Source: Clostridium sp. CAG:413 (GTDB lineage: Bacteria; Bacillota; Clostridia; Oscillospirales; Acutalibacteraceae). From it: a stretch of DNA of 64,000 nt. Positions 687-53,953 of the stretch are shown piece after piece. How positions within the stretch are numbered: position 1 is the first letter of the stretch; each line of letters begins with the position of its first letter. A program made the translations under genes and the position numbers. The stretch lies in the NCBI GenBank assembly GCA_000431775.1, contig FR888240.1, positions 17,327 to 81,326 of the forward strand. The letters run 5' to 3'. The notes below the pieces were generated by a model. That model did not search any database and was not told where the DNA came from. It saw only the letters and a program-made list of their open reading frames with translations.

Positions 687-696
687 GTATGTAAGA
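687..696 (-). promoter_or_regulatory. Element promoter block, copy 1 (leftward)
   Basis: GTATGTAAGA is the complement of TCTTACATAC. It points towards the tRNAs and no gene is visible downstream, so any transcript would cross the putative attL region. Confidence 0.5.
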
Positions 697-756
697 TGTC
701 AAGTAATAAGAATACAATCACAACTAAAGAGATATGTCTATAGAAGGTGATTGTTG

Positions 757-1947
757 ATGATCAAACAGATACTCGGCAAGGGATCTGTCTATGCGAAGAA
801 AAATAAATACGGAAATCGCTATTGGTATCTGGAGGTGCGATATCTCGATGAAAACGATGAGCAGCATAAAAAGTACATCAGGGGCGTTACCAGAAGAGAT
901 GCCTTTGCCAACGGTGATGAGTTCATACAGCAAACCAACGAGGATATAGAGCGGATAAACAAAAATGAAGCTTCTGACTGCAAAAATGTATCTTTCAATG
1001 AGTTCTGCGCCGATTATCTTGAAAAAGTCTGCAAGAGAAAAGTTAAAGACAGCACTTACCTTAGATATGTTACAACCTTTAAGAAAAACCTGTCACCGCA
1101 ATTGGGCGATATGCTGATGAAAGATATAAGCACTTTTGATATTATCGACTGCATTAATAAATTAGTGGATACAGGATTATCCGAATCAACGGTGAAAAAA
1201 GCTTATTTGCTGTTGTCAAAATGTTTTGCTTTTTATAAGACCGTTACAGGAAGCTCGTATAGCCCCTTAGACGGCGTTGAACAGCCAAGGGTAAGAGTAG
1301 ACACCGGCGAACATATAAAGTGCTTTACACCGGCGGAAATGGAGCGAATACGGCTCGCTTCGATGCAATGTTCAGATGATGGTACTTTGAAATACGCCAA
1401 TGCCATTGTGGTTTTAGCTTACAGCGGGCTCAGAGTAGGGGAGCTGCTTGCTCTTACATGGGATGACGTCGATCTCGTAAACAACACTATTCACATCGGC
1501 AAAACGATATCTCAGGGCGTTGTGCAAGAGAACGGTACTGTTGATTACAGTCTCAGGATACAAAATATGCCGAAGTCAAAGAGCGGAGAGCGTACTATCG
1601 TGCTGCATCCTTATGCCAAAGACGCCTTAATCAGGATGCGGAATAAAAGCGATGGTTCGGAATATGTCGTTTCCACTGAAAATCACAACCCGGTTTCTCC
1701 CGGCAGAATTTATAAAACTTTCGGTTCAATTCTTAATAGGTGCGATTTTCAAGTAAATGGCAGGACCGGCGTTCACTCTTTGCGTCATTCGTTTGCTACA
1801 TATTTAATCAAAGCAGGGTTAGACTCGGATTCTGTTGCGGTTTATTTAGGGCATTCGACTGACGCCATTACGAAAAAATTCTACATTCACGACAAAGAAA
1901 ATATCGCGAGGAACAAGTGGCTGCAATCTGCTGTTTTTTGCGCTTAA
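757..1947 (+). CDS. int: Tyrosine recombinase / ICE integrase
   Basis: Site-specific tyrosine recombinase, expected to integrate and excise the element. About 396 aa, usual for Tn916-type integrases. The N-terminus has an AP2-like arm-binding look (RYWYLEVRYLDENDE), followed by a SAM-like core-binding domain (about 60-170) and the catalytic domain. Visible catalytic residues are Arg in SGLRVGE (about 226), HxxR in HSLRHSF (about 339) and the Tyr nucleophile in KKFYIH (about 375), with GHS before it. ATG 757 was chosen over TTG 751/754 because GAAGGTG at 743-749 sits 7 nt from it. It lies next to tRNA-Cys and reads away from it, typical of tRNA-targeted ICEs. It has no copy of the element promoter block reading into it, so its control differs from the other genes. 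Confidence 0.93.
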   Translation: MIKQILGKGSVYAKKNKYGNRYWYLEVRYLDENDEQHKKYIRGVTRRDAFANGDEFIQQTNEDIERINKNEASDCKNVSFNEFCADYLEKVCKRKVKDSTYLRYVTTFKKNLSPQLGDMLMKDISTFDIIDCINKLVDTGLSESTVKKAYLLLSKCFAFYKTVTGSSYSPLDGVEQPRVRVDTGEHIKCFTPAEMERIRLASMQCSDDGTLKYANAIVVLAYSGLRVGELLALTWDDVDLVNNTIHIGKTISQGVVQENGTVDYSLRIQNMPKSKSGERTIVLHPYAKDALIRMRNKSDGSEYVVSTENHNPVSPGRIYKTFGSILNRCDFQVNGRTGVHSLRHSFATYLIKAGLDSDSVAVYLGHSTDAITKKFYIHDKENIARNKWLQSAVFCA

Positions 1948-1969
1948 TAAAGTATGACCAATCAAAACG

Positions 1970-2020
1970 GTGCTTCTTATCATCGGATACTTTCCAATGA
2001 TAAGGGGCACTTTTGTTTTT
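1970..2020 (+). terminator. Terminator after integrase
   Basis: A long stem with arms GTGC-TTCTTATCAT and ATGATAAGGG-GCAC (with G-U pairs), followed by TTTTGTTTTTTT. Confidence 0.85.
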
Positions 2021-2111
2021 TTAAAATACAATCTTGTACAGAAATAACCATCCCATTTAATATCTTACATATTTTATGTGCCGAATAATCACCCCGCTTT
2101 TTCCGCTGCAT

Positions 2112-2121
2112 TCTTACATAC
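2112..2121 (+). promoter_or_regulatory. Element promoter block, copy 2
   Basis: TCTTACATAC followed by TTTC, directly upstream of the small gene at 2146. Confidence 0.6.
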
Positions 2122-2145
2122 TTTCTATGAAACGAAACAAAAGAG

Positions 2146-2490
2146 GTGATTATTATAGGCGAGTTGTATAAAGAGTTTTCTGAACATATGCAAAAGAAAG
2201 GAACGTACTCTGGCGATGCCGTTGAAGAAGCACTGGCTCTCCATTTTTCGCATCCAAAATTAACAGAAAGGTTGGCGAATTTATCCAAGCAAGGGGTGCG
2301 CTTGAAATCGCGAGATGAAAATCCTTGGCACACGGAAATGAAGCAGCATAATGTCTCAGAAAAACAAATCGAAATTATCAAAGAATACGTTCGTTTTAAG
2401 GAAAAGAATCATCGAGAGATTATGGATGATTTCAAGAGACGCTCGGCGGATATAGGGGCATTTTCCCCTAATTACAGAAAAGAACGATAA
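2146..2490 (+). CDS. Small hypothetical protein, possibly frameshifted at its end
   Basis: I do not recognise this protein of at most 114 aa. It is charged and mostly helical, with no membrane segment. The start is uncertain: GTG 2146 lies inside the AAGAGGTG ribosome binding site, so a non-ATG start a little downstream (for example TTG 2164) may be used. The last codons fall in a repeat also found at 573-606. In a different frame that repeat continues as DKKAYCVSCGSVKRS, a zinc-knuckle-like string. One extra base relative to the upstream copy separates the frames, so the gene may have lost a CxxC tail. It shares a transcription unit with the next gene. Confidence 0.5.
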   Translation: MIIIGELYKEFSEHMQKKGTYSGDAVEEALALHFSHPKLTERLANLSKQGVRLKSRDENPWHTEMKQHNVSEKQIEIIKEYVRFKEKNHREIMDDFKRRSADIGAFSPNYRKER

Positions 2491-2524
2491 GAAAGCCTAC
2501 TGCGTAAGCTGTGGGAGTGTCAAA
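2489..2524 (+). repeat. Dispersed GTGGGAG hairpin repeat, copy B
   Basis: Contains CCTAC-TGCGTAAGCT-GTGGG. The arms can pair through a G-U, a compensated variant of the CCCAC/GTGGG hairpin in copy C (54196-54226). Copy A is at 573-606. Similarity to copy A extends upstream to about 2474. Confidence 0.55.
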
Positions 2525-2554
2525 AGAAGTTTATGTTTTAAGTGAGGGTGGTAA

Positions 2555-3001
2555 ATGTCAGTATCTTTTATAATTAATTCTTCCGGCAGACCGAAAGAAC
2601 TGTACGACATGAGTGACAGCGAGATAAACAATTTATCAACATTGCTATCGGGACCAATCAATAATCTTAATAAATCAAGAGTGAGTGTTATAAAGAACAG
2701 AGAAAACCCCATTAAGCTGTCAGACTTATCAGTCGATTCGCTTGCCGTCTTAAAAGCATCTGTGAACAGTTACAAAAACGGTCGGATCAAAGAAGTTCAT
2801 ATGTATTACAGTGTCAGCGAAACCGAACTTATTTCTGCCTTGATAAAGTGTAACATGAATGTATCAATGACGGCTCGTGAACTACATACTACTCGTGACA
2901 AAGTACGGGAAGCCATAAAGCGCTTCCGACTGAGATGGGGGATCGACCTCACCACTTACGCAGGACTCAGCAAAGCATATACATTTTCTCTGGGAAGCTG
3001 A
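2555..3001 (+). CDS. HTH protein, Fis/PucR-type C-terminus
   Basis: A 148-aa protein. The N-terminal half is unrecognised. Residues about 95-140 form a Fis-like helix-turn-helix (NVSMTARELHTTRDKVREAI) of the kind found at the end of PucR/CdaR-type regulators, so a DNA-binding role is likely. The ATG is preceded by GAGGGTGG. It is the second gene of the unit that begins at the promoter block at 2112 and it ends at a strong terminator. Target unknown. It could regulate the neighbouring integrase or replication genes, but nothing in the sequence shows that directly. Confidence 0.6.
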   Translation: MSVSFIINSSGRPKELYDMSDSEINNLSTLLSGPINNLNKSRVSVIKNRENPIKLSDLSVDSLAVLKASVNSYKNGRIKEVHMYYSVSETELISALIKCNMNVSMTARELHTTRDKVREAIKRFRLRWGIDLTTYAGLSKAYTFSLGS

Positions 3002-3051: not shown

Positions 3052-3061
3052 TCTTACATAC
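3052..3061 (+). promoter_or_regulatory. Element promoter block, copy 3 (dnaE)
   Basis: TCTTACATAC followed by TTTC, 37 nt before the dnaE start codon and just after a terminator. Confidence 0.62.
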
Positions 3062-3098: not shown

Positions 3099-6000
3099 AT
3101 GTTTAGTGGTTCTATTCATACTCATAGCGAAAACTCATTAACCGATTCCGTTGCGAGTGTCGAAGAGCTCGTTGCTCGTGCAAAAGAAATGGGTGCGCCA
3201 GCTATGGCTTTGACTGATCACGGCACTTTAATAGGTACATGGGATTTCCTTGATGCCTGTAATTCGGCTGGGATAAAAGGCATAGTCGGAGTTGAGTTTT
3301 ATGTTGGTAATAACGGTCAAAGAGAGCATTTGATAGTATTACCTAAAAACGAGCAGGGCTTTCGGGCAATATCAAAAGCTGTGACGGAAAGCAACTACAA
3401 CATCATCGGAGGTAAACCTATCGCAAATGCCGAAATCCTGAAAAAATGGTTTGGGAAAGGTTCTATCGGTTACGACAATGTGATAGCTACATCGGCCTGT
3501 GTTGCAGGAGTGCTCGCAAGCGCTTTTTTGAGTAACGAAAATCTTGAAAAAGAACAAGAACAGCTCTTAAAAAAGAAAAATAAGGAAAGCGATCCCAATA
3601 GCCCATTGTACAAGCAATTCCTCGACAACTACGAAAAGATTGAACAGGAATTTGAACAGCTTAAGTCGAACAAGGCAGAAAAGAAAACGATCGCTGCCAA
3701 AAAGTATATTCAGCGTATCAAAAGGGCGACTCAGAAAAATGATGAGGCGGAACTTGCTCGTATAAAAGAAGAGGAAGAAGAATCCCGTAAGTGCCAAGAA
3801 GAGTTACCGAAGCTGGAGTTGACCTTAAAGACCAAACAAAAGCAGCTCACTGAACAACGCAAAAGAAAAAGGGATATCGAAGCGTCACACGCCAAATACT
3901 GTGCTTTGCAATCAGAGATTGAAGAAATCGAATGTCGAAAAAAATCAGAAGAGCAGATGCTTGATGATTGTTATGTTAAACTACAAGAATATCAAGAGCT
4001 TTTCGGTGCTGATAATTTTTACATCGAACTACAATATCACGGCATACCGAATGAAGCTAAAATCATGCCCATCTTAGCAGATTTGGCTGAAGCTCAGGGC
4101 GTACCGATAGTAGCGTCTAACGATATACATTGTGTATATCGGGAAGATGCAGAAGGCAGAGCCGTAAATTTCGCACAGAAATATTGGTGGACCGGCATTG
4201 AAGATTCCGATTGGGAACTCTATATGAAAAGTGACGAAGAATTGTCTGAGTGGCTTGCTAAAATATTACCAAGCCATATCGTTCGTGAAGCTATCGCAAA
4301 CATAGGCAATATCTTCGAAAAATGTGATGTTGAATTCCGTTCGGAAACACACTATCCCAAATTTGATTGTCCTGAAGGCGCAAAGACACGACTGAGAAAT
4401 CTTGTTGAACAAGGAAAGAAGAAAATTTCAGAGTGGACGACAACATATGAAGAACGAGTCCAATACGAACTTTCCGTAATTGAAAAATTGGGTTTCTCCG
4501 ATTATCTTTGTGTTGTTGAAGATTTCCTGACCTATGCGAGACTCGTTGGAAAAATTGACATTAACAATCCCGAATTTCTTGCAGATCCATTCAACCTGAC
4601 CTTGCTTGAGAAACTTGCTAAGGACGGAGTAGGCGAAGGTGCAGGACCCGGAAGAGGCTCCGGTGCGGGAAGTTTAGTGTGCTACCTCATAGGCATAACA
4701 GATATTGATCCTCTTAAATACGACTTGCTGTTTGAGCGCTTTCTGAATCCTGAAAGAGTAACCATGCCCGATATAGATTCGGATATAGCCATCGATATAC
4801 GTCAGTATGTTATTGACTATATAAGGCACAAATACGGCAAAAATGCTGTCTGTCAGATCATGACGAGAAATTATTTCTTGTCGAAGAACGCCATAAAAGC
4901 AGCAGGCAGAGCGTATTCGCAGAAAGTCAATGACGGAAGGAAATTCTATGAGATAACTGACGCAATGTCAAAGATGATCACAGAAAAAATGTCTCTATCT
5001 GATATTGAAGGTTTGGTCAATGACACATACGGAAAAGCAGCCGGCGAATCATACAACCCGGATGCTCTTGAGATTTTCCGCTTTGCCAAGCTGCTTGAAG
5101 GAAAACTCAGCAATATAGGTACGCATGCCGCCGGAGTCGTCATATCCGACACACCCGACATATCAGATCATTTGCCGCTTATTTGTGTGGAAGGTACAAT
5201 GTCATGTCAATGCGACAAGAATCGCGTTGAAGCTCTCGGATGCTTAAAGATGGACGCTCTCGGATTGAGAAATCTTTCTGTTATTACGGATTGTGAAAGA
5301 ACGATCCAAAAAGTGTATAATAAAAAGATATCAATGCACGATATACCTATCGAATCGGCAGTGTTCAAGAAGGTATTCCAGACAGCAAAAACCAATAGCG
5401 TCTTTCAGTTTGAGTCGGATGGCATGAAAAAAGTTCTTTTAGGTTTCCGTCCTGATAAGTTCGAAGACCTGATATTACTCAATGCAGTGTTTCGTCCGGG
5501 TCCTTTACAGTACATCGACGAAATCACTGCGGTGAAAAACGGTGAAAAAGAACCCGAATATGTCATTCCGGAAATGGCAGAAGTGCTCAGTGAAACTTAC
5601 GGAAAACCGGTTTATCAGGAACAATTGATGGCCATCTTCTCGCGATTTGCAGGCTTTACGCTCGGTGAAGCGGATATAATAAGGCGTTACATGTCAAAAA
5701 AGAAAACGGATAAGTTTATTAAGTACAAGGATAAGTTTATTGACGGACTTGTGGATCATGGCGCAGAGCGTAAGAAAGCAGAGGACTTTTGGATGGAGCT
5801 CGTTAAGTTTTCCGAGTACGCTTTTAATAAAAGCCATTCTACCGCATATGCTTGGGTAGCTTATGTCACGGCATACCTTAAACTGCATTATCCGGAGGCT
5901 TATGCCGTTGGTTCGCTCAATTATCCTGCTACAGATAAATTCGAGTCCGTTCTCAATGAGTTTCTTTCAATGGGTATCGATTTCTCTGTTCCTGATGTTA

Positions 6001-6953
6001 ACAAAGCATATAGCGGTTTTGCACTATCATCAAATAAAATAGTCTATGGATTAAGCTCGATTGCCGGAATAAAAAAAGCAGCTGAAAAGATAGTTCAAGA
6101 GCGAAACGATAATGGCAAATATTTATCGTTCGAGAATTTCTTGATGCGTACTCGCATGTCTAAAAATGTCACAAAAAACATGATAAAGGCCGGTTGCTTT
6201 GATGGATTACATGATAATCGCAAGGAATTGCTGGAGTCCTGTGATTTTATTGCTGACATGGTTACAAAAATACGTAAGAAGCAGGACGAGCTCGAAGCCG
6301 AAGCAGATCCCGTAAGACGTAAAAAGCTGACCGAGTCAATCGAGAGTTACAAAGAAAAGCTCGAAAACCGTTACGAGCCTGTTCGCGAAGATAAATGGCA
6401 GCGCTTAAGGGACGAGCAAGAAGTGCTTGGACATTTTATCTCTGAGCATCCACTTGATGTAATAACCGTACCTCAAAACCTTAAGCTAAACAGCATCAGC
6501 AACCTCAAAAAGTATGACAATACGATTTTGGCGTATGCGACCAATATACAGATTCGTCACAAAAAAGCCGATGGCAAAGAGTTCGCATACTTCGATATCG
6601 AGGACAAAACAGGGAAAATATCCTGTGCATGCTTTAGCAAGGACTATGAAAGCTGCGGGTGCAATATTAAATCTGAGGCTATTTTAGTGGTTAAAGGCGA
6701 TCAGAGGTATGATAGAGATCGCGATGAAGTATTTCTGTGCGTTAAAGATGTGCAGCCGTTCGTTGAAGAACCCAAATCCGTTGCGATATCGGTCCCTTCA
6801 TTAAAAGCTTGGGAAGACGGCCAATCGAAGGTTTTGCCTTATTGCGATCAAAATGGCGATAAATTAGTCGTATTCTTAGCGGACGAAGGCCGCTACATAA
6901 AAACCGACTATATCGTCAGTGCCGACATAACATCCGCCGATTTTTCGTGGTAA
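3099..6953 (+). CDS. dnaE: DNA polymerase III alpha subunit (DnaE-type), element-encoded
   Basis: Replicative C-family DNA polymerase, 1284 aa against about 1100-1160 for usual DnaE. The N-terminal PHP domain shows HTHSENSLTDS, ALTDHG, GVEFYV and SNDIHC. A Lys/Glu-rich coiled coil of about 130 residues (about 145-290) is inserted in the PHP domain between CVAGVLASA and FYIELQ, which accounts for the extra length. The palm has GPGRGSGAGSL and the catalytic PDIDSD motif, followed by the finger region with AFNKSHSTAYA. The C-terminus carries an OB fold (ILAYATNIQIRHKKADGKEF). AAAGGAGG lies 7 nt before the ATG. It is alone between the promoter block and a terminator. It would let the element replicate with its own polymerase after excision. 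The PHP zinc ligands look largely retained, so proofreading may be possible. Confidence 0.95.
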   Translation: MFSGSIHTHSENSLTDSVASVEELVARAKEMGAPAMALTDHGTLIGTWDFLDACNSAGIKGIVGVEFYVGNNGQREHLIVLPKNEQGFRAISKAVTESNYNIIGGKPIANAEILKKWFGKGSIGYDNVIATSACVAGVLASAFLSNENLEKEQEQLLKKKNKESDPNSPLYKQFLDNYEKIEQEFEQLKSNKAEKKTIAAKKYIQRIKRATQKNDEAELARIKEEEEESRKCQEELPKLELTLKTKQKQLTEQRKRKRDIEASHAKYCALQSEIEEIECRKKSEEQMLDDCYVKLQEYQELFGADNFYIELQYHGIPNEAKIMPILADLAEAQGVPIVASNDIHCVYREDAEGRAVNFAQKYWWTGIEDSDWELYMKSDEELSEWLAKILPSHIVREAIANIGNIFEKCDVEFRSETHYPKFDCPEGAKTRLRNLVEQGKKKISEWTTTYEERVQYELSVIEKLGFSDYLCVVEDFLTYARLVGKIDINNPEFLADPFNLTLLEKLAKDGVGEGAGPGRGSGAGSLVCYLIGITDIDPLKYDLLFERFLNPERVTMPDIDSDIAIDIRQYVIDYIRHKYGKNAVCQIMTRNYFLSKNAIKAAGRAYSQKVNDGRKFYEITDAMSKMITEKMSLSDIEGLVNDTYGKAAGESYNPDALEIFRFAKLLEGKLSNIGTHAAGVVISDTPDISDHLPLICVEGTMSCQCDKNRVEALGCLKMDALGLRNLSVITDCERTIQKVYNKKISMHDIPIESAVFKKVFQTAKTNSVFQFESDGMKKVLLGFRPDKFEDLILLNAVFRPGPLQYIDEITAVKNGEKEPEYVIPEMAEVLSETYGKPVYQEQLMAIFSRFAGFTLGEADIIRRYMSKKKTDKFIKYKDKFIDGLVDHGAERKKAEDFWMELVKFSEYAFNKSHSTAYAWVAYVTAYLKLHYPEAYAVGSLNYPATDKFESVLNEFLSMGIDFSVPDVNKAYSGFALSSNKIVYGLSSIAGIKKAAEKIVQERNDNGKYLSFENFLMRTRMSKNVTKNMIKAGCFDGLHDNRKELLESCDFIADMVTKIRKKQDELEAEADPVRRKKLTESIESYKEKLENRYEPVREDKWQRLRDEQEVLGHFISEHPLDVITVPQNLKLNSISNLKKYDNTILAYATNIQIRHKKADGKEFAYFDIEDKTGKISCACFSKDYESCGCNIKSEAILVVKGDQRYDRDRDEVFLCVKDVQPFVEEPKSVAISVPSLKAWEDGQSKVLPYCDQNGDKLVVFLADEGRYIKTDYIVSADITSADFSW

Positions 6954-7027: not shown

Positions 7028-7037
7028 TCTTACATAC
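7028..7037 (+). promoter_or_regulatory. Element promoter block, copy 4
   Basis: TCTTACATAC followed by TTTTC, upstream of the OB-fold gene at 7096. Confidence 0.6.
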
Positions 7038-7095: not shown

Positions 7096-8061
7096 TTGAA
7101 ACATAATAATGTTTTTATATGCGGATGGGTCAGAGAATTACCTAAGGTCGTAAAAAATGATGCGACCGGTGAGTATGTTTTTGCCATGGGCAGAATCGTA
7201 ACGCTGAGAGGCTTGCGAAAATTTGGAGTCAGAACAAGCAGAATTAAATATGATGAGCCTTTGATATACACGCAGAATCCGGAAATGTGCAAGGAAATAG
7301 CGTCATGGAGCATCGGAGATATTGTTGAAGTGAAGGGTGCTTTGACCACAAAAGACATCAATAAAGTAACTACTTGTCCCGAATGCAAACATAAAAACGC
7401 ACAGCCGGGCAATGCAGCATATGTGACCCCGATACATTGTTATGTTCGAGAGAGCAATGGGTATGACAAAGACGAAGCTTATGAGGCGCTTAGGCGACTC
7501 TGCGAAATATCGAATAATGTAACACTTATAGGAGTCGTTTGCCGAGAGCCGGAGCTGTACCGAAAAAACAAAGTCAAAATAACATCATATCAGTTGGCGG
7601 TTCGAAGGAAATACCGAATAGCCGAAGATGCTTTGGAAACAAAAACCGATTTTCCGTGGGTCAAATCCTTTGGCGGTATAGGGGAGAATGATGCGTTGGT
7701 TCTCAGAAAAGGTTCGTACCTATTTTTAGATGGTTGGATACAAACTCGCAAATTTCCTCGCGAAACAGTCTGCGAATGTTGCGGTCATCCGTACAAATGG
7801 AACGACTGGTCTCTCGAAGTTGTGCCGTATGCAAGCGAATATGTGCGAAACTGCCGCACCCGCGAAGAATTACAGGCAGAGGAAAAAGCACGAATTGAAA
7901 AAAGCTACAAAGAGTTATTTGCAGATGAAGAACCGCCTCAGACCGGCTCAATTGAAAACATCGAAGAAATCGAAAAAGAGCTTGACGAATATAACTCTTT
8001 CGAGGAACACGATCAGGATGCTTTAAGAAAACTCTCATCTTTTGAAGACCTTGATAATTAA
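7096..8061 (+). CDS. Double OB-fold ssDNA-binding-like protein
   Basis: A 321-aa protein that looks like two SSB-type OB folds in tandem. The first (about 1-120) starts HNNVFICGWVRELPKVV and carries CPECKHK. The second (about 135-255) starts NNVTLIGVVCREPELY and carries CECCGHPYKW. The two CxxC pairs suggest bound zinc. The tail (about 260-321) is acidic and ends EDLDN, like the acidic tip of SSB that recruits partner proteins. The start is TTG at 7096, behind AGGAG at 7081-7085. Monocistronic, between dnaE and recJ. Likely role: coating single strands during element replication or transfer. The family match is by pattern only. Confidence 0.68.
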   Translation: MKHNNVFICGWVRELPKVVKNDATGEYVFAMGRIVTLRGLRKFGVRTSRIKYDEPLIYTQNPEMCKEIASWSIGDIVEVKGALTTKDINKVTTCPECKHKNAQPGNAAYVTPIHCYVRESNGYDKDEAYEALRRLCEISNNVTLIGVVCREPELYRKNKVKITSYQLAVRRKYRIAEDALETKTDFPWVKSFGGIGENDALVLRKGSYLFLDGWIQTRKFPRETVCECCGHPYKWNDWSLEVVPYASEYVRNCRTREELQAEEKARIEKSYKELFADEEPPQTGSIENIEEIEKELDEYNSFEEHDQDALRKLSSFEDLDN

Positions 8062-8114: not shown

Positions 8115-8124
8115 TCTTACATAC
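8115..8124 (+). promoter_or_regulatory. Element promoter block, copy 5 (recJ)
   Basis: TCTTACATAC followed by TTAC, upstream of recJ. Confidence 0.6.
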
Positions 8125-8178
8125 TTACATTGATATTGTATGACATTTGGAGTGTCTACAGAAAGGAGGAAAACAAGA

Positions 8179-10776: not shown

Positions 10777-10786
10777 TCTTACATAC
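10777..10786 (+). promoter_or_regulatory. Element promoter block, copy 6
   Basis: TCTTACATAC followed by TTTC, immediately behind the terminator's T tract. Confidence 0.62.
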
Positions 10787-10821
10787 TTTCATCGAAAAAA
10801 CAAAATATAGGAGTGAAACAA

Positions 10822-12633: not shown

Positions 12634-12644
12634 CAAATTCCTCC

Positions 12645-13481: not shown

Positions 13482-13549
13482 TTCTTTTCCTCCTTTTATT
13501 GTTGAGCTCGATATGGACTTAACTCCAAATCGTCTCTTTAGCACTCAAA

Positions 13550-13559
13550 GTATGTAAGA
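13550..13559 (-). promoter_or_regulatory. Element promoter block, copy 7 (leftward)
   Basis: The complement reads TCTTACATAC followed by TTTG. It drives the annealase-like/exonuclease operon, back to back with copy 8, 30 nt away. Confidence 0.62.
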
Positions 13560-15230: not shown

Positions 15231-15265
15231 ATTAATTTTTTAAATAAAGAAAGGAAACAAAAATT

Positions 15266-45892: not shown

Positions 45893-47602
45893 GTGCCTTA
45901 TGGTACGAACGGTTCGAAAACGGTCTTTTATTGTAAGGGCTGTTGCGACTGTACTTCCAAATGCTCCGGAACCGAAACGACAATAGTAACAGAATACCAT
46001 ACGGGTTATTCCGAAACCCCATGCAGCAATTCGCAAATTGTTGGGTCGGGAACGTCTTATCATTCAAAAGAAGAAGTTAACTATTATTGCCTATACAGCT
46101 TTTACGATACCGAACAAAAATGCCGCGACGCAGGATGTACGAATCCATACTATTATCCATATGTTACATTAAATGGCACAACGGGATGGTACGGATGTGG
46201 CGGACACAAGAAACCGTTTGCGTCCTGCGATAATTGCTATTTTAATTACTCTCCTTTTGAACCGGGCTATGAATGTTATGGACATACGAAATATTATTAC
46301 GGATGTAAAGGTCATACTATCACGCTGACCTTTAATACATGCAAGGGCTACTGTGACGGTCACAGCTTCCATTATTGCACCGGTCATGTTGATCTCGATA
46401 TTTCAATGGTAACGCTGTTTCTTGATGATGAAAACGGACTTACTAAACTCGGTATGCCGAAATCTGTTACAACCGAAATCAAAACATTTAAGGATAAGGA
46501 TGACGTGGAGTACCAATTGGAAATCCAAGAGCCTATACTTCCGTTTGTTACGCTTTATAATAGTGTTCCCGCTTTCCAAAACATTGACGCAACGCTGCCG
46601 TTGCCCGATTCTGATGCGATCAAAAAAGAAGTGAAAATGAAATTGGAAGGTATCGACAATATCGAAATTGCGTCTAACCTTACAGTTGATACCTTGCGGT
46701 TCTTCTGGATGTTTAAGGATGGAAAGAGTCCATACGAAGATAGCAATAAAGATATCACTACCATGGATGAGCTTGTGAAACAGTACTTTATCCAATTTGA
46801 AACTTGCGAATGGCAGGATACAAACGATGCCGGTACATTGGACGCTTCCGGTGTGTTAACTTATGGCAATTTTGATATCGGTCATCTTGCAGGCGTATAC
46901 AAAAAGTTCGGAAAAACAAATAAATTCGAAGGCTGGTATAGCTACGGCGATGATGGAAACATCGAAACTGTTGAAAAAACTGAAGACGGAATCACTTCTA
47001 CAATGTATGTTGACGCCGGAAGTGTAGGTAGGGCTGTAGCTATGATGGATGACAATTGGAAGGAACTGTACGATATAGACTTTCCCGGCTCTTTCGAAGG
47101 CACAATTACCGATAAGGACAAAGCGCTGCTTATAAGCAAAGCTCAAGAACTGCACGGTAGGGGAGAAATGGCCGAGAAGATACTTGATCGCATCGGAAAC
47201 GATGATTATGATTCGGGACCGAGAGGCTGTGTTGATTATGCCGAAACGCTCTATCAGTCCGGTTTTGGTAAACTGCCGGGTTGGGGTCATGTCCCGGATT
47301 CCATCTCAGACAACGATGCCGTTAAGTGGATATACAGCAACAATAATGCCACACCTATTACTTCCGAAGAACAGGTCAAAGGCCTCAGCACAGGTGACTG
47401 TGTCCTTATCGGAGACGAAATCTATGTTGTGCTTTATAACAACTACAACGAGATAAGTCAAATAACCGGTAAGCCGAAAGGTATAACCGCTGAAGGTCGT
47501 ATAGTCTTTGCCACAGTTGCAGGTGGTGGAGCATCACGACTTGTAGCCTTTAATACCGAAACGCTCACAAAACAAATCGGTTTTGGTCTTGTAAAATACT
47601 GA
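45893..47602 (+). CDS. Giant transfer protein, 3' part: Cys/His-rich and hydrolase-like end
   Basis: 569 codons from GTG 45893, which lacks a ribosome binding site, so this is best read as the displaced C-terminus of the gene at 39874. Residues about 1-170 are Cys/His/Tyr-rich with repeated CxGH patterns (FYCKGCCDC, WYGCGGH, YYGCKGH, YCTGH), continuing the style of the upstream end. Residues about 430-569 resemble an NlpC/CHAP-type cysteine peptidase (RGCVDYAETLYQSGFG, GWGHVPDS, LSTGDCVLIGD), with Cys about 446 as possible nucleophile. Expected outside the cell, cutting peptidoglycan for the channel. Domain calls are by pattern. Confidence 0.65.
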   Translation: MPYGTNGSKTVFYCKGCCDCTSKCSGTETTIVTEYHTGYSETPCSNSQIVGSGTSYHSKEEVNYYCLYSFYDTEQKCRDAGCTNPYYYPYVTLNGTTGWYGCGGHKKPFASCDNCYFNYSPFEPGYECYGHTKYYYGCKGHTITLTFNTCKGYCDGHSFHYCTGHVDLDISMVTLFLDDENGLTKLGMPKSVTTEIKTFKDKDDVEYQLEIQEPILPFVTLYNSVPAFQNIDATLPLPDSDAIKKEVKMKLEGIDNIEIASNLTVDTLRFFWMFKDGKSPYEDSNKDITTMDELVKQYFIQFETCEWQDTNDAGTLDASGVLTYGNFDIGHLAGVYKKFGKTNKFEGWYSYGDDGNIETVEKTEDGITSTMYVDAGSVGRAVAMMDDNWKELYDIDFPGSFEGTITDKDKALLISKAQELHGRGEMAEKILDRIGNDDYDSGPRGCVDYAETLYQSGFGKLPGWGHVPDSISDNDAVKWIYSNNNATPITSEEQVKGLSTGDCVLIGDEIYVVLYNNYNEISQITGKPKGITAEGRIVFATVAGGGASRLVAFNTETLTKQIGFGLVKY

Positions 47603-47610
47603 TACCGACA

Positions 47611-47647
47611 AAAGCCCTTGCGGCGCAAACCGTAGGGGCTTTCTTTT
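47611..47647 (+). terminator. Terminator of the transfer operon
   Basis: AAAGCCCTTGCGG and CCGTAGGGGCTTT followed by CTTTT. Confidence 0.85.
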
Positions 47648-47952
47648 AGCCTACAAGCCGTCAAAAAAGCGCTTTGATGCTTCGGCGCGTTCCTACTCGC
47701 AATAAACGCTAACAGGCTGTTTTTGACGCAAATCCGCTAACTGTGACTTTGTTAAATGATGGTAGAATGAAATTATCAAAATACAGAGATAACTCTGCAA
47801 AATTGCTTAATTCAAACTTTTCGTTTCACTAATTGCAGATTTTTCACTTAAAGGTGCAAAAAACAATTCGATATTATTTGCAGATTGCTTCTTAAATGTG
47901 CAATTGAGACTCTGCTTCTAATTAAATCTTTCTCACAATGGAGGTTGATTTC
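47648..47952. other. Gap before the XRE regulator
   Basis: No gene seen. A 9-bp inverted repeat CGTCAAAAA/TTTTTGACG (47659-47667 and 47720-47728) brackets a GC-rich segment. From about 47795 there are scattered TGCAAAATTGC, AATTGCAGATTTTT and GTGCAATTG half-sites, possible operators of the regulator that follows. Confidence 0.45.
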
Positions 47953-48333
47953 TTGGAATTAAATGATAAGATTAAAGCGCTCCGAGCGCGAAAAGGACTC
48001 ACTCAAAAGGCTCTTTCAGAGCTTACGGGAATATCGATAAGAACGATAATCAATTACGAGACATATGGAAAAGTTCCTAAAAACCGAAAGGCTTTGGAAG
48101 CCTTGGCAAAGGCTCTTGATGTTGATGTGTCATATCTGGCTCAAGACAAAAAGGATTGTGCGTTGTCAACTGACGACCGCATAAGCGAAGAAACTAAAAC
48201 CTCTTTGCTTCTCTATGACGCTACATCATTTATATCAAATACCAATATCTCTGATAAACGAAAAGAGCAATTTGTTCTGTCGATAAACGAAGCTTATTGG
48301 AAATTCCTCAGTAAGCAAAGAAAAGGCAAATAA
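47953..48333 (+). CDS. XRE-family repressor (second ImmR-like)
   Basis: About 126 aa. The N-terminal XRE HTH (KIKALRARKGLTQKALSELT, RTIINYETYGKVPKN) is followed by a helical C-terminus ending FVLSINEAYWKFLSK. The EAYW tail and overall pattern match the regulator at 52455-52865, so the two are paralogs. TTG 47953 is 8 nt after GGAGG. An upstream ATG contains the ribosome binding site. Lies convergent to the relaxase gene. It may compete with its paralog or control the relaxase region. Confidence 0.82.
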   Translation: MELNDKIKALRARKGLTQKALSELTGISIRTIINYETYGKVPKNRKALEALAKALDVDVSYLAQDKKDCALSTDDRISEETKTSLLLYDATSFISNTNISDKRKEQFVLSINEAYWKFLSKQRKGK

Positions 48334-48343
48334 CGGAAATAAC

Positions 48344-48384
48344 AAAAGCGACTGCCCTCTGAAATGAGGTTGCAGTCGCTTCTT
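48344..48384. terminator. Bidirectional terminator
   Basis: AAGCGACTGC and GCAGTCGCTT between the convergent regulator and relaxase genes. Confidence 0.82.
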
Positions 48385-48400
48385 CGTTTTGCAGTACAAT

Positions 48401-49507
48401 TTACTTTTCTTCAATGGTTACATTTTCGATTTCTAAGCCGTTCTCTCTGTTATCCATGCGTCCGCCGCGTTCTCTCTGAACTTTTTCATAGGCGGCAAGA
48501 GCTTCATTCATAATCGTAAACATTTCCTTTTGCTTTATGTCGTTCTCTTCGCCCAACAGCTTTTGCTTGAAGGCTGAAACAACTTTGTTGAGGTTGCTTA
48601 GATTAATGTAATCGTTATTTGACATGCCGTGCTCGACCAATCTGTCATTAAGTGTTCGTTGAAGAGATTCTATTATCTGCCCCTGTCCGGACAGCACCTT
48701 CTGCATCTCTTTGCTTTGCAGCTGAAGCGTCTCGCCCATCTGATTTTTACTCTTTTCGGCTGACTCGGCTATGCGCTTATATTCTTCAACAGACTTCTCG
48801 GCCTGTCTCATAATATCGGTTTGTTTCCTGTAGTTAGCAAGGCGCTCTGATTTGTAATGTTCGTTGGCCCTTGCATAATAGTCTTCAAGATTCTCTCCTT
48901 TTGTCGGAGCCGGAAGGTTTTCCTGTGCGACCTTTTGTGTCGCATTTCTAAGCTGCTGCATGGTCTTGTAAGATACAGGAGTACTTTCCATTCCTCTTTC
49001 AAGTCCCAACTTTTTAACTGATTCCGCATAAGACGTCTGCATGGCCACGCAGCGTTCGCGTCCGTTAATATATTCGGATGCATACAAGCGCCCGTCAACA
49101 ATCGGAACAACGACCGCATGAATATGCGGCGACGATTCGTCTCCGTGATAAATAGCCGATATGACATTGTCTTTGCCGAAGTAGTTCCTTACCCATTCTA
49201 CGCTTCGTTTCTTCCACTCTTCAAGATCAACTTCGCTTTGCTTTCCGGTAAATGTCATCATAACTTCGAGCGCCTTGATGCACCCCTTTTTGGGCTGGAT
49301 ATTTTGCTCGGCGAGCTTGTTCTTGTAAGCGTCAATATAATCTTGACTTTCCAGTTTGATCAACTCTTCATTCAAATACGCTTTTGCAGGATCCGCATTG
49401 TCGGGTTGTTCTTTGCGGAAATTGTGTGCAGCCGAAGCTGCCATTTCGCCGGTCGTTTTCAGCTTGGCAAATTTTACGACTGCATAATTCGTTTTGTTTT
49501 CAAACAT
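48401..49507 (-). CDS. mob: MOBV-type relaxase (Mob_Pre)
   Basis: About 368 aa. It nicks DNA at oriT and leads the strand into the recipient. The N-terminal relaxase domain shows NYAVVKFAKLKTTGEMAASA, an EVMMTFTGKQ strand and the metal-binding IYHGDESSPHIHAVVVPI. The following segment with GRERCVAMQTSYAESVKKLG is typical of the family. The C-terminal half is coiled coil. ATG 49507 is about 7 nt from AAGGAGT on the minus strand. Transcribed leftward from its own copy of the element promoter block, so mobilisation should be switched on with the transfer genes. Confidence 0.93.
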   Translation of the reverse strand: MFENKTNYAVVKFAKLKTTGEMAASAAHNFRKEQPDNADPAKAYLNEELIKLESQDYIDAYKNKLAEQNIQPKKGCIKALEVMMTFTGKQSEVDLEEWKKRSVEWVRNYFGKDNVISAIYHGDESSPHIHAVVVPIVDGRLYASEYINGRERCVAMQTSYAESVKKLGLERGMESTPVSYKTMQQLRNATQKVAQENLPAPTKGENLEDYYARANEHYKSERLANYRKQTDIMRQAEKSVEEYKRIAESAEKSKNQMGETLQLQSKEMQKVLSGQGQIIESLQRTLNDRLVEHGMSNNDYINLSNLNKVVSAFKQKLLGEENDIKQKEMFTIMNEALAAYEKVQRERGGRMDNRENGLEIENVTIEEK

Positions 49508-49540
49508 ACCATCACTCCTTTGTTGGTTTAGTCGAGTAAA

Positions 49541-49550
49541 GTATGTAAGA
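49541..49550 (-). promoter_or_regulatory. Element promoter block, copy 17 (leftward, relaxase)
   Basis: The complement reads TCTTACATAC followed by TTTAC, 33 nt from the relaxase start. Confidence 0.62.
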
Positions 49551-49693
49551 TGGGCGGGAACGTTTTGAGGGTTATCTCTTGATGCTAACAAAGAAAAGAA
49601 ATGATGAAACTTTTTGACACAATTTTTTTCTCTCCGAAAACGGTCGTCATAACCTGTAATGACAACATATCGTCATATGACAACATAACAGAC

Positions 49694-49714
49694 AAAACGC
49701 CCTCTCGGCGTTTT
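49694..49714. other. Inverted repeat near the relaxase, possible oriT part
   Basis: AAAACGCC-CTCTC-GGCGTTTT, a perfect 8-bp stem about 190 bp upstream of the relaxase start. A second small palindromic patch (CATATCGTCATATG) lies at 49668-49681. MOBV oriT sites lie upstream of the relaxase gene and contain an inverted repeat next to nic. It does not match a known oriT that I can recall. Confidence 0.35.
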
Positions 49715-50931
49715 CCATACAGGACACAAAAAGAAATCAAACGGTCATCCGAACTGCCTAACGAAACATATCCGTTTATCAATCTTTTCGCTCATCTGTA
49801 TTAACAGAACGAACATTAAACGGTCCCTTTGCGAGAACATATTCAGACGTTCAGAATCACAAAATCATCAGCTGAACACGCTCACGCGACAATAAACAGA
49901 ACAATACCAGAACATCAAACGGAAAAACTCGCAAACAATGAAGAAAAAGAAAGACCCACCTCAAAACCGAATGCAACAATCCAAATTTGACCTACAACAT
50001 CACGATAAACAGACCAATCCAAACCTCCACACAATCACTCCCATCAAAATCTCTCTCTGAACAACCAAAATCAATCAAACTGTTTTCCAACAAAAAATCT
50101 CACACAAAAATCCGTCAGAATAATAAATGAAGTCAGAATAACGGAGAGGAAAACGAAACAAAAAAAGAAACGCATGACAGAAGTTTCGAATAGAAAAAGC
50201 GCATGAACGACTTTGAATATAGCCCGTCCATATATCGTTTATCATCCTCTCATATATTCATCTTTCTATATGTGAAAATGAGCGGAATGTAAAAAGAGAT
50301 GAAGTCGATTTTTTTGAAAGACAGATATGGGAAACGATAAGGAGTGTCTACGCGCCTTCTGAAAGCCACAGTCGTGATTGCTTACTAACGCCCGGTAATC
50401 CATCAAAAGGAAATCAAAAAGAGGGTATGAAAAGAGAAAAGAGAAACAAACGGAAAACAACGATGTTTTCCTATTAGACATCGTACAATGTCCTGACATC
50501 ACTCCACCTTCTGAATAAACGATAAAACCTCTCTTAATAAGTCGCAAGTCTGAACTGCGACTTTTGCTCCGACATATAAAACTGATCATTTTATGTTCCT
50601 CAATGTCCCGCTTTCTGAATAACGGTTCTCGTATAAATCTTTCTGTATAGTGTCTCCCAATTTCCATTCAGAAACATCAGTAAAACAAAAGTGAGACGGT
50701 CGTGACCTTCTGACGAATAAGTTGAGGAATAGGTTGAAAATTCAGATGCAAATATCAGTGTGCCGGAACGCGCCGTTCTTCTGTATGGAAAACTATATTG
50801 TTCCGCGATAAACAAATTCAAAAAAAACTAAAAAAAGATTCAAATCTGTGATTTTATGATGTGAGCAACCATATACTATCAATAGAGGGAAAAATATGTC
50901 GAATAGGGAATTTGATATGCGTGTTTTGTCA

Positions 50932-51312
50932 AATACCATAAAGCTGAGAATTGGGATACGAGATCGACTGATAAATGCGCTGCGATTGATATCCGATAGT
51001 TAACCATTTCTCCGTATATGCCGTGAACTTAATTTTTGCTTTGCTCGTGATATGCGCATGGTTCAGTTTACGAAGGAAGAAGCTCGAATATATAAATGAA
51101 ACGCAGTAGCCTGAGCATTGTTCCGAATACCGTTTTGCCTTGCTTGTTTGCCTTGCTTGTATAAATACCATAAAGCTGAGAAATGAGATGTCTGAGAGAT
51201 AAAATACCAAATATACCTGAGAAATTGATGTGATTGATAATGTGGAAATGAGTGATACCAAATATGCTGAGATATATAACCGAAAAGGATGATAATACCA
51301 AACATAGTGATA
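50932..51312. repeat. Five iteron-like direct repeats (ATACCAWAWA..CTGAG)
   Basis: Units start at about 50932 (AATACCATAAAGCTGAGAAT), 51164 (AATACCATAAAGCTGAGAAA), 51203 (AATACCAAATATACCTGAGA), 51255 (ATACCAAATATGCTGAGATA) and 51295 (ATACCAAACATAGTGATAC). The last four are spaced about 40-52 bp. Such an array could be a replication initiation site or regulator binding region. Confidence 0.6.
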
Positions 51313-51517
51313 CAGTGGGTCTAGGGACGGAAAACAGGAAAACGGAAAACAGTGTCAGAAAGAAAAGAAGGGGAGCGCGGGCGGAGACAACTGCAATTTT
51401 CACTTCCTGCAAAACTGCAATTTTGCACCTGCAACGGATCTGCGACTGCAAATGTGCAATGTGAAGACGGAAACAAAAAAGAGCAGCCGAAACTGACTGC
51501 TCTCTGAAACGGTTCAA

Positions 51518-52045
51518 TTAAATGAATTCCGGCATGTTGTTAAAAAAGTCTCTGTCGTATTCTACTGATAAAGGAATCTCATATCCGAGCTTGTTCATTT
51601 CCCGTACCTTAATGAGGAGTAAGTTCGGATTAACGCACAGCAACTGAGCTGCCTTGCTCAGGTCATTGACCTGTCTGATGAGATTAAGGACTTCATCGTT
51701 GCTCAATAGCAAATGAGCGGCAAATGCATTGGCTTCGTATTCTGTGATATCTTTGATGTTCAAAAGACCGAATTCCTTAAACTCATTGTTTTGAGCCAAT
51801 GCTCTGTGCAGCCTGTCGTGACCTATCTCGTGCGCTGTCACGAGTTGCTCGGTATGATAACTCAGACCGTCGTTGAGAATGATTATTCGATTTCTCCAAC
51901 GATATGTGTAGAGACCCAGCAAAGTGTCAAAATCATGATATAAGACCTTAATACCGATTTCTCTTGCGATCTGAGCAGCGTCCCTTGTATCGCATCGATC
52001 GATAAGCTCCTCTGCTTTTCTGTATATCCCAACAGAATCAATCAA
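51518..52045 (-). CDS. immA: ImmA/IrrE-type metalloprotease
   Basis: About 175 aa. Zinc-metalloprotease motif HEIGH within VTAHEIGHDRLHRAL, with the following EYEANAFAAHLLL as third-ligand helix, the ImmA/IrrE (DUF955) pattern. In ICEBs1 the ImmA protease cuts the repressor ImmR to induce the element. The XRE gene two positions upstream is the natural target here. TTG 52045 is 8 nt from AAGGAGG. A GTG at 52054 would overlap that site. Confidence 0.9.
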   Translation of the reverse strand: MIDSVGIYRKAEELIDRCDTRDAAQIAREIGIKVLYHDFDTLLGLYTYRWRNRIIILNDGLSYHTEQLVTAHEIGHDRLHRALAQNNEFKEFGLLNIKDITEYEANAFAAHLLLSNDEVLNLIRQVNDLSKAAQLLCVNPNLLLIKVREMNKLGYEIPLSVEYDRDFFNNMPEFI

Positions 52046-52078
52046 TGCCGCCACCTCCTTATTTCTATATACCCCAAC

Positions 52079-52447
52079 TTATCTCCTGACAAAGAATTCT
52101 TCCTTAATAAGTTCTCTTCGCCCGCTCTCAAACGAGTCGGATTTTATGAGAAACCGGTTGCGAAGATTCTCGGAATAATCCGCCTCGCCCTTGTATCTGT
52201 AAAGAATAACCATTTCGATCCGATCTTCGTGTTTGCAAATATCGTCAATTGACGTAGTGAAGCAAAAATCATCTTTAGCAGCTTCGGACATATACTCATC
52301 TGAAATATTTAAGTGATCGGACGGATAATTGTCAAACATCTCTCTTGATTCGGAGCTTATCCATAAAGCTGCTTTGGAGGAAAGCTGCAATATTCGTTCG
52401 ATGACTTCACAATTGCAATCTGTTTCTGAACAGCAAAAAACCGTCAT
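52079..52447 (-). CDS. Hypothetical protein between ImmR- and ImmA-like genes
   Basis: About 122 aa, unrecognised. It begins TVFCCSETDCNCEVIERI and ends with FESGRRELIKEEFFVRR. ATG 52447 is 7 nt inside the spacing from the repressor stop, behind AAGGATG. The position between repressor and protease genes suggests a modulator of that switch, for example an adaptor or inhibitor, but nothing in the sequence proves it. Confidence 0.5.
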   Translation of the reverse strand: MTVFCCSETDCNCEVIERILQLSSKAALWISSESREMFDNYPSDHLNISDEYMSEAAKDDFCFTTSIDDICKHEDRIEMVILYRYKGEADYSENLRNRFLIKSDSFESGRRELIKEEFFVRR

Positions 52448-52454
52448 GTCTATA

Positions 52455-52865
52455 TCATCCTTGTTCTTTATTCTTGCGTCCGAATTTCTCTGAATTCTCT
52501 TTTTTGCAGAGCCAGTAAGCCTCCTGTAAGGCGAGCATAACACCTTCTTTGTCGGCGTCTGAAAGCTCACCGCCCGCGAAAAGCGCATGTGCGTCTCTTA
52601 TGAGACTTTCGGCCTGAGCTGCTCCTCTTGTACCGTATTTCGCTTTTGCTTCGAAAACGAAATCTTCGCCCTCGTTCTTGAGCTCACAGACATCGACCTT
52701 CAACACTCTGGCGAGATCGGAATATACCTGTCTGTTCTTCGGATATGTCTTCCCGTGTTCGTAATTGTTAATGGTGTTTCTGCCTACACCGGATTTCTCG
52801 GCAAGCTCGGCCTGCGTCATGTTTTGTTCAGTTCGATACAAACGTAATTTTTCACCGAACGTCAT
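52455..52865 (-). CDS. immR: XRE repressor, ImmR-like
   Basis: About 136 aa. XRE HTH at about 5-60 (KLRLYRTEQNMTQAELAEKS, NTINNYEHGKTYPKN), then a helical C-terminus with LALQEAYWLCKK. Paralogous to the regulator at 47953. ATG 52865 behind GGGAGG on the minus strand. It faces the 53074 operon across about 200 bp that contain three GCACAA-N5-TTGTGC-like operators, one lying inside a sigma-A promoter spacer. Paired with the ImmA-like protease it should be the master repressor of the element. Confidence 0.87.
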   Translation of the reverse strand: MTFGEKLRLYRTEQNMTQAELAEKSGVGRNTINNYEHGKTYPKNRQVYSDLARVLKVDVCELKNEGEDFVFEAKAKYGTRGAAQAESLIRDAHALFAGGELSDADKEGVMLALQEAYWLCKKENSEKFGRKNKEQG

Positions 52866-52904
52866 TGGTAAAACCTCCCTTGGGACGATAAATGCGAGCA
52901 AAAT

Positions 52905-52921
52905 GCACAAATAAATTGAGC
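52905..52921. promoter_or_regulatory. Operator O3 (GCACAAATAAATTGAGC)
   Basis: Imperfect GCACAA/TTGAGC dyad 40 bp upstream of the repressor start, so it probably mediates autoregulation. Confidence 0.55.
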
Positions 52922-52939
52922 AAAGTCCGTTTTATTGGC

Positions 52940-52968
52940 TTGACAAGCACAAATTAATTGTGTATAAT
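52940..52968 (+). promoter_or_regulatory. Sigma-A promoter with operator in its spacer
   Basis: TTGACA (52940-52945), 17-nt spacer, TATAAT (52963-52968), both perfect consensus. Operator O1, GCACAAATTAATTGTGT (52947-52963), fills the spacer. It would drive 53074-53913 when the repressor is gone. Confidence 0.85.
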
Positions 52969-52977
52969 CTGGATAAC

Positions 52978-52994
52978 GCACAAGTAAATTGTGC
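52978..52994. promoter_or_regulatory. Operator O2 (GCACAAGTAAATTGTGC)
   Basis: A dyad with perfect GCACAA/TTGTGC arms just downstream of the -10 box. A further half-site TTGTGC lies at 53021-53026. Confidence 0.65.
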
Positions 52995-53073
52995 ATTTGA
53001 TGGCTATATTTTATACCAACTTGTGCAAAAAGTCAATAGGGTAATTAAAAAAATTATATAAGGAGGATAAATA

Positions 53074-53376
53074 ATGAACAGGGTGATGTTATCAGGACGG
53101 CATGAGCCGTGTATAAGGGAAGGAGTTGTCGGATGCGATGGTTATGCATATAAATTTGATTGTTTGTACTGTCTCATCGTCAGTGAGAGCAGAAGGCACG
53201 TCAATGACGGCATAGTCGAAAATTCAATCATTTATGTTGATAGCAGTATTCCTTATGAGAAGGACAAGCTTAATATCTTTGTTAACGACATGGGCGAGTT
53301 TGAATTATCGGCGAACCGTGAAAATGACAAAGACTACTCAGGCAGAGTTATTATGACCATTAATCAATATGACTGA
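53074..53376 (+). CDS. Hypothetical protein, first gene of the derepressed operon
   Basis: 100 aa, unrecognised (YAYKFDCLYCLIVSESRRHV; IIYVDSSIPYEKDKLNIFVN). ATG behind AAGGAGG. First gene after the operator-controlled sigma-A promoter, cotranscribed with the ArpU-like gene 21 nt downstream. As an early gene of the switch it may be an excision, anti-repressor or defence-evasion factor. No evidence separates these. Confidence 0.55.
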   Translation: MNRVMLSGRHEPCIREGVVGCDGYAYKFDCLYCLIVSESRRHVNDGIVENSIIYVDSSIPYEKDKLNIFVNDMGEFELSANRENDKDYSGRVIMTINQYD

Positions 53377-53397
53377 AATGAGAAAGGAGTCCCATAA

Positions 53398-53913
53398 ATG
53401 AAAAAGAACGCCTACGGACCTAAGACAAAAGAAGAAGCCCTTGATAAAAACACACTTGAACTGCTCAAAAACTATCGTGAGATAAAATGGAGCATAGAGA
53501 TCGCCGGCGCTGAATTGAAACAGGATGTTGAACAGCGGTACTTTATGCCCGTCGGAGATTATCTCGACGCTCTTTACGGTGCGGGCGTAGAGCAGAGATA
53601 TGACCGCCGAATTGAGTCGCTTGCTAAAAGCGCGGAAATGTCGGTGCGGATGTTATCGGTACTTCATTTGGCTTTAGAAAAAATAAAGGACAAGCACGAG
53701 AGAGGCGAAGAGTATTACTATGTACTCTATTATTCGTTTCTGTACAAATCGAAGCTTTCTCTTGCTCAGATCATTTCGTGTTTAGCCGCAAAAGGCTTTG
53801 TATATGAAGACAGAACATATTATCGCAGAAGGAATGAAGCAATCGAGGTCCTTTCGGTAGTTCTTTGGGGATGCACGGCAAATCACTTGAAATTAATGCC
53901 GGATGAGCATTAA
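53398..53913 (+). CDS. ArpU / sigma-region-4-like regulator, candidate activator
   Basis: 171 aa. The C-terminal 60 residues (YYYVLYYSFLYKSKLSLAQI ... RTYYRRRNEAIEVLSVVLWG) have the arrangement of ArpU/RinA-type phage late activators and sigma region 4: a Y-rich helix, an HTH in which TYYRRRNEAI would be the recognition helix, and an ALS..LWG end. The N-terminal 100 residues are helical. AAAGGAG before the ATG. Cotranscribed with the preceding gene from the repressor-controlled promoter and located 31 bp upstream of copy 18 of the element block. Best candidate for the protein that recognises the 18 blocks (inference). Confidence 0.6.
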   Translation: MKKNAYGPKTKEEALDKNTLELLKNYREIKWSIEIAGAELKQDVEQRYFMPVGDYLDALYGAGVEQRYDRRIESLAKSAEMSVRMLSVLHLALEKIKDKHERGEEYYYVLYYSFLYKSKLSLAQIISCLAAKGFVYEDRTYYRRRNEAIEVLSVVLWGCTANHLKLMPDEH

Positions 53914-53943
53914 AACCCCAAACCGCTTGATTTTTAATTTCAA

Positions 53944-53953
53944 TCTTACATAT
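53944..53953 (+). promoter_or_regulatory. Element promoter block, copy 18 (structured RNA)
   Basis: TCTTACATAT followed by TTTC, 31 bp after the ArpU-like gene. No protein gene follows for 1.6 kb. The structured-RNA candidate starts here. Confidence 0.62.

Follow-up and report, generated by a model that had tools for sequence, protein, structure and literature searches.

What reads a short word that one mobile element repeats upstream of gene after gene, and what does it mean that other elements carry the same word? These questions are raised by a 64,000-nt stretch of DNA from Clostridium sp. CAG:413 (GCA_000431775.1, contig FR888240.1, positions 17,327 to 81,326 of the forward strand), which was analysed as a whole and is called the window here. 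An element resembling integrative and conjugative elements (ICEs) occupies the window from about 0.7 to 54 kb and lies near a tRNA-Cys gene. The element encodes a tyrosine integrase, DnaE-, SSB-, RecJ- and RecD2-like proteins, a topoisomerase and a DNA methylase. For transfer it encodes VirD4, PrgI, VirB4 (TraG P-loop) and a Mob_Pre relaxase, so that the integrase, relaxase, coupling protein and VirB4 by which an ICE is recognized are all present. The repeated word is the core of a real, specific and composite promoter that is private to this ICE and to a group of satellite elements. Its sharing with the satellites is the finding; the factor that reads it is a candidate.

The core, TCTTACATAC, occurs 15 times exactly in the window, against 0.06 expected (the mean of 100 dinucleotide shuffles, maximum 1), and a chance origin was rejected on this count. 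Allowing one mismatch gave 22 matches against 3.55 expected; three of these (4712, 24712 and 28959) are intragenic and were excluded as chance before sites were counted. A sequence-only reading had listed 18 copies, all of which were recovered at their positions and strands (15 exact and three variants, namely 28428 and 53944, ending in T, and 21813, starting with C). A 19th core, absent from that list, lies at 2063, 49 nt upstream of the core at 2112. In a hand-picked set of coding sequences, which make up 89% of positions 600-54000, 18 of the 19 cores fall outside. The sole exception, 49541, is inside owing to a probably misassigned TTG start, because a ribosome-binding site and an ATG come after the motif. 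The proposed orientation with the downstream gene was borne out, since the gene faced by a core is on its own strand in 17 of the 19 cases; for 687(-) and 53944(+) the set contains no such gene. That nearly every copy follows a terminator was overstated. In the scanned stretches, which covered 18 sites (49541 lay outside them), a terminator-like hairpin lies within 60 nt upstream of six sites, and 28428 has one 135 nt upstream.

Alignment of the 19 sites, numbered from the first core T (position 0), gave the consensus AA-TCTTACATAC-TTT(C). A second conserved spot follows at +17 (G in 14/19) and +18 (A in 13/19), and a box, TGTnCAGAAA, stands at exactly -28 in three sites (2063, 21813 and 28428). 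Across the alignment there is no column information at the -35 distance and no upstream repeat pattern. The lack of a conserved sigma-A -35 is thereby confirmed: no TTGACA and TATAAT 16-18 nt apart, as required for sigma-A (sigma-70), were found, and CATACT matches TATAAT at four of six positions. Transcription would start at or beside the conserved G at +17, which becomes +1 if CATACT is the -10 hexamer. The earlier proposal of an element-wide promoter with its block in the -10 region therefore stands if this G is the start site; that of a single block does not, given the added G, A and -28 box. The promoter has three parts: the core plus TTTC, the initiator G at +17 and, in a subset, the -28 box. 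A leader motif seen by eye, ACGnnnnGGAG, followed six of the 19 sites, some of them plain ribosome-binding sites, and was dropped.

Is the motif a promoter of the host at large? A scan of species-representative contigs with a 16-mer found 74 stretches; most had a single match, often in an unrelated phylum, but clusters appeared in gut Clostridia. Two families of metagenome-assembled genomes, labelled Oscillospiraceae and Lachnospiraceae in the records and with no genome visibly in common between their samples, were then screened. Among 398 genomes of the family of genome G001, TCTTACATACTTWC gave 35 matches in 15 genomes. Of these matches, 26 cluster in six genomes (G001, G003, G005, G007, G008 and G011), all already found by the 16-mer scan, and nine are single matches in separate genomes, against 24 singles, in 24 genomes, in the reversed control. 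Two of the nine singles lie in elements, in G010 (L087) and in G730 (L101, where both the box and a +17 G are present); among the other seven, G at +17 is found in one (L093) and the -28 box in none. Among 378 genomes of the family of G002, TCTTACATACTTTCNNTGA was found in G002 only, at three sites (control 0). The motif is not a general host promoter, and host-wide use was rejected on these near-background counts. The host-chromosome frequency by which the sequence-only reading proposed to judge its regulon thus came out in its favour, other genomes only being counted.

Where the motif clusters in other genomes, it lies in small integrative elements. Twelve genomes carry the motif; 14 stretches from them were read (L076-L089), and 11 element loci were compared, the element ends not being mapped. 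Tyrosine integrases of one family are encoded in eight of the 11 loci (near-identical in L083 and L085), seven of the eight on the same strand as a motif and 0.4-2.2 kb downstream of it. A relaxase family is present in three loci, with a Mob_Pre match in two of the three, and no relaxase was recognised in the other loci. A pair of SSB-like and AAA-type genes occurs in six of the 11 (the one AAA-type member scanned is AAA_25), and motif arrays of two to six copies, spaced 76-130 nt apart, lie upstream of the SSB-like gene. A 140-aa protein family is found in five loci; its one scanned member has no Pfam match. The ICE VirB4 and VirD4 had no match in the 14 loci, and the only ICE proteins matched there were the integrase, the relaxase, the CAP-domain protein and two others (a short helix-turn-helix (HTH) stretch, matching a gene outside the L085 element, and a surface protein at the edge of the window). 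With a recombinase of their own (the integrase in 8/11 loci) and no mating-pore genes matched, these loci are in these two respects like integrative mobilizable elements. A promoter motif shared by a conjugative element and integrative satellites, as seen here, is one mark of a helper-satellite regulon that works as AcaCD or SetCD does. The L089 motif is intragenic and was taken as chance, and L078 has no visible element; further motif sites lie in L174, L176 and L177, the last of which has an L086-type integrase.

The promoter parts recur in the satellites with greater clarity. Of 49 satellite sites, 45 are non-redundant; among these, A at -2 is found in 40, T at +16 in 38, G at +17 in 43 and A at +18 in 35, so that the flanking parts are stronger than in the ICE. 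A box of the form T(G/A)(T/C)TCAGAAA stands at -28 in nine of the 45 and at -27 in one. The combination box-N18-core, with at most two mismatches, gave 15 matches in seven of the 11 satellite genomes and none in the reversed control. The satellite sites had been selected on the 10-nt core and many of their loci on the 16-mer, so for core and TTTC they give no independent evidence. For initiator and box they do.

Some observations on the satellites may be added. Several members of the 140-aa family (L076 12869-13294 and relatives) lie behind a box-bearing motif, and a 577-aa recombinase-like open reading frame (ORF) can be read in L081 and L174. Arrays precede the SSB-like and AAA-type genes at L076 13729-13982, L079 13742-14205 and L081 10415-10719. 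Several array copies have TTTTTGCAA about 6-15 nt upstream, and the arrays may double as iterons.

How might the promoter be read? The preferred explanation, to which we give a probability of roughly 60%, is that a dedicated transcription factor encoded by the ICE reads it and that the satellites carry it to be woken by their helper. The right part of the element offers a candidate switch. An ImmA-like metallopeptidase (Peptidase_M78; 51518-52054) and an ImmR-like HTH_3 repressor (52455-52910) are encoded there on the reverse strand. Three operator-like repeats occupy 52905-53000 (starts at 52905, 52947 and 52978), and a perfect sigma-A promoter, TTGACA-17-TATAAT, overlaps one of them at 52940-52968 on the forward strand. 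The first gene downstream (53074-53376, forward) encodes a 100-aa protein of no assigned function, followed by a 171-aa protein (53398-53913, forward). Derepression of this ImmR/ImmA-type switch would allow the sigma-A promoter to make the factor, most likely the 171-aa protein, which would direct RNA polymerase to the 19 promoters of the TCTTACATAC type. Seventeen of these would drive genes for replication, DNA processing, the coupling protein, the type IV secretion system (T4SS), the relaxase and other functions, with transcription beginning at or beside the G 17 nt after the first core T. In the satellites, where the same promoter precedes replication, relaxase and integrase genes, absence of the factor would mean silence; upon entry of the ICE they would excise and use its transfer machinery. 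The start site, the identity of the factor and the activation and mobilisation of the satellites are what we infer here.

The 171-aa protein is the best candidate reader, with a weak likeness to sigma region 4 and to Ltr. Its structure model is all-helical, with a C-terminus that is sigma region-4-like at a middling Z score. All nine members of its family match PHROG 36 and PHROG 1558. In NCBIfam, the protein of the window itself has no match to an RNA polymerase sigma factor model, which three of the nine touch at a best E of 0.03, and the RinA/ArpU models of NCBIfam or Pfam matched no family member at E <= 1. A sequence search of the PDB with the family profile gave two matches, at E 0.65 and 1.3, that were put down to chance. 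Metagenome contigs encode homologues at 58-78% (P0012-P0014). The candidate has no match in any of the 12 motif-bearing genomes, two of which (G009 and G012) are without a recognised element. Four of the 11 satellite genomes hold a related VirB4 (38-39%) on contigs without the motif pattern, and the related T4SS loci there showed no strong repeated word. One result weighs against the 171-aa protein as reader: in a co-variation test with the window halves as positive control, 20 loci with its distant homologues and two plasmid elements lacked the motif.

The block might instead be an operator, at which an ICE activator helps the sigma-A holoenzyme at the degenerate -10 CATACT; the satellites would then still hijack the helper. 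Activators of such kind are already known from helpers, and CATACT falls at -12 to -7 if the conserved G is +1. Candidates would be the 171-aa protein, a 148-aa protein (2555-3001) and a multi-HTH protein (19189-20178, 329 aa), acting in the manner of Ltr- or AcaCD-type activators; a collection of 5.8 billion proteins contains only three homologues of the multi-HTH protein at E <= 0.001. However, a near-invariant core with a fixed initiator resembles polymerase or sigma contacts more. Ltr proteins reportedly bind repeats that precede a TATA box (PMC13123087), and none stand out here. Furthermore, the multi-HTH and 148-aa genes have motif promoters before them (18497 and 2112), so their products would not start the cascade alone. 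On balance an operator seems unlikely, if worth keeping in mind.

A host alternative sigma factor or regulator, tapped by ICE and satellites both, would explain the sharing without a helper. Such a factor is very improbable because it would have no host targets: outside elements the motif is near background in the first family, and in the second it is confined to G002. Could the motif be a replication or partition repeat, iteron-like or architectural, with its position upstream of genes secondary? The satellite arrays before SSB-like and AAA-type genes invite this view, but nearly all array copies keep the G at +17 and a single orientation, and the ICE has mostly single copies with short leaders before genes of many kinds; we give the idea hardly any credence. 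A phage origin was also considered. A search of viral contigs, with a pattern stricter than the core and met by only one window site, gave one match, alone and intragenic, which is weak evidence, and the ICE VirD4 had no match in viral contigs.

The ICE-encoded factor we prefer can be set beside known systems. The sequence-only reading had likened the motif to the late promoter of phage T4, which has no -35, is element-wide and is built on an octamer of the TATAAATA type. This likeness was given up: the core is TCTTACATAC in 15 of the 19 sites, not TATAAATA, and box and initiator are added. Family scans of the window named no gp55-, gp33- or clamp-like protein. In the AcaCD regulon of SGI1 and IncA/C (IncC) plasmids, a master activator encoded by the helper acts on promoters in helper and satellite (PMC5058578; PMC5704250). 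SGI1 is quiescent without its helper, and AcaCD promoters have no obvious -35 box (PMC5058578; PMC5704250). A promoter common to helper and satellite and the absent -35 box are thus shared with the present case. However, AcaCD works in enterobacteria, where activation has been shown, whereas in these Clostridia it is presumed; and AcaCD is FlhDC-related (PMC5058578), whereas the candidate here is sigma-4/Ltr-like and the promoter has another sequence with a fixed initiator. No FlhD/FlhC-related Pfam match was found among 50 + 6 ORFs scanned, smaller ORFs being outside the scan. SetCD, the activator of SXT/R391 ICEs, turns on the integrase and recombination directionality factor genes of MGIVflInd1 (PMC5704250); activator, sequence and phylum all differ here, and MGIVflInd1 uses the ICE relaxase whereas three of the present loci carry a MobV-type relaxase family of their own. 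In phage phi13, Ltr acts on promoter P23 via repeats that precede a sigma-A TATA box (PMC13123087). The 171-aa protein is like the late regulators Ltr, RinA and ArpU of Gram-positive phages in being a small protein (of the size class of the Ltr regulators of Staphylococcus phages), a relative of a PHROG transcription regulator, with its gene directly upstream of a would-be target promoter (30 nt, from 53913 to the core at 53944). It differs in facing 19 copies of a promoter whose one block sits at -10 and which lacks upstream repeats.

Which genes stand behind the ICE promoters? The integrase gene (751-1947, forward) has no motif upstream. On the forward strand, the core TCTTACATAT at 2063-2072 (box TGTACAGAAA at -28) is followed by 2112-2121, upstream of 2146-2490 and 2555-3001 (weak HTH match). 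Next come 3052-3061 before the DnaE-like polymerase (3099-6953), 7028-7037 before the SSB-like gene (7096-8061), 8115-8124 before the RecJ-like gene (8140-9867) and 10777-10786 before 10813-11148 and a signal peptidase (11145-11612). The reverse-strand core 13550-13559 serves a leftward pair, 12645-13544 and an exonuclease (11659-12648), and is divergent from 13589-13598, upstream of 13746-17646. The cores 17691-17700 and 18497-18506 precede 17766-18398 and 18536-21780, the latter run including the multi-HTH gene, whose product shows by eye a tandem array of about seven HTH units (its Pfam result is the best 25 of 29 matches) and has one weak match, with an internal stop, in G002. Downstream of CCTTACATAC at 21813-21822 (box TGTTCAGAAA) lie the RecD2-like helicase and topoisomerase. 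Behind 27324-27333 is 27493-28254, surface-like by reading of the sequence, and behind TCTTACATAT at 28428-28437 (box TGTGCAGAAA) the CAP-domain protein (28474-29241). The core 29331-29340 precedes the DNA methylase (29373-30143), 30184-30193 precedes 30228-31610 and VirD4 (31617-33806), and 33827-33836 precedes a gene run from 33889 that includes PrgI and VirB4 (35852-38344). On the reverse strand, 49541-49550 lies upstream of the Mob_Pre relaxase (48401-49591). Replication, transfer and surface genes thus stand behind the cores as had been claimed; an RNA gene behind TCTTACATAT at 53944-53953(+), 30 nt past the stop codon (53913) of the candidate factor gene, is unproven, and the DNA there partially matches tnpB-annotated DNA.

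That match, at 54021-54136, is to DNA inside tnpB-annotated plasmid genes (75%), and a TnpB-like C-terminal stretch can be read in 53954-55020. The same interval folds at a minimum free energy of -365 kcal/mol over 1040 nt, without a shuffle control. Rfam gave three tRNAs in the window at the gathering threshold and no match at E <= 1 within 47400-55650. At the other end, the reverse-strand core 687-696, with no downstream ORF in the hand-picked set, faces the tRNA-Cys junction and perhaps makes a small RNA across the attachment region. No exact attachment repeat of at least 13 nt was found in the window. A 27-nt near-repeat (93%; 581-607 and 54200-54226) may mark the element ends or insertion sequence remnants; the 54200-54226 copy resembles an IS200/IS605 end. 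A gene-poor stretch at 50100-51500 contains repeated words such as TACCAAA/TACCATAAAG and TTCTGAATAA. Protein clusters 98% identical to two element proteins hold 85 and 113 sequences (P0001 and P0004), and the element is therefore recurrent. A marker protein of the ICE (30228-31610, alignment A1) has seven homologues in the protein collection; 159 stretches in genome contigs matched its pattern, none confirmed as a relative, and relatives were found in 0 of 391 genomes of the class and 0 of 11 satellite genomes.

To conclude, what does the shared promoter mean for gut Clostridia? Most integrative mobilizable elements are expected, in a review among whose cases are SGI1- and SXT-type systems, to time their excision by the main regulator of the helper (PMC5704250). 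No report of a helper-satellite promoter shared in Firmicutes was found in the literature searched, which was judged by titles and abstract openings and included few subscription journals, nor in the available parts of PMC11389934 and PMC7563843; papers containing the literal motif were all unrelated among the matches listed. A broader picture is tentative, and as a whole we would bet somewhat against it: an ICE with its own sigma-like factor and private three-part promoter would wake many differing satellites, found in two or more families of gut Clostridia, a Firmicutes helper-satellite network without a classical activator. The logic by which satellites read their helper is here visible from sequence alone in gut Clostridia. 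The signal is short, near-exact and searchable, so that satellites may be matched to their helpers by promoter, and the 171-aa protein provides a testable candidate for a sigma-like factor encoded by an ICE.

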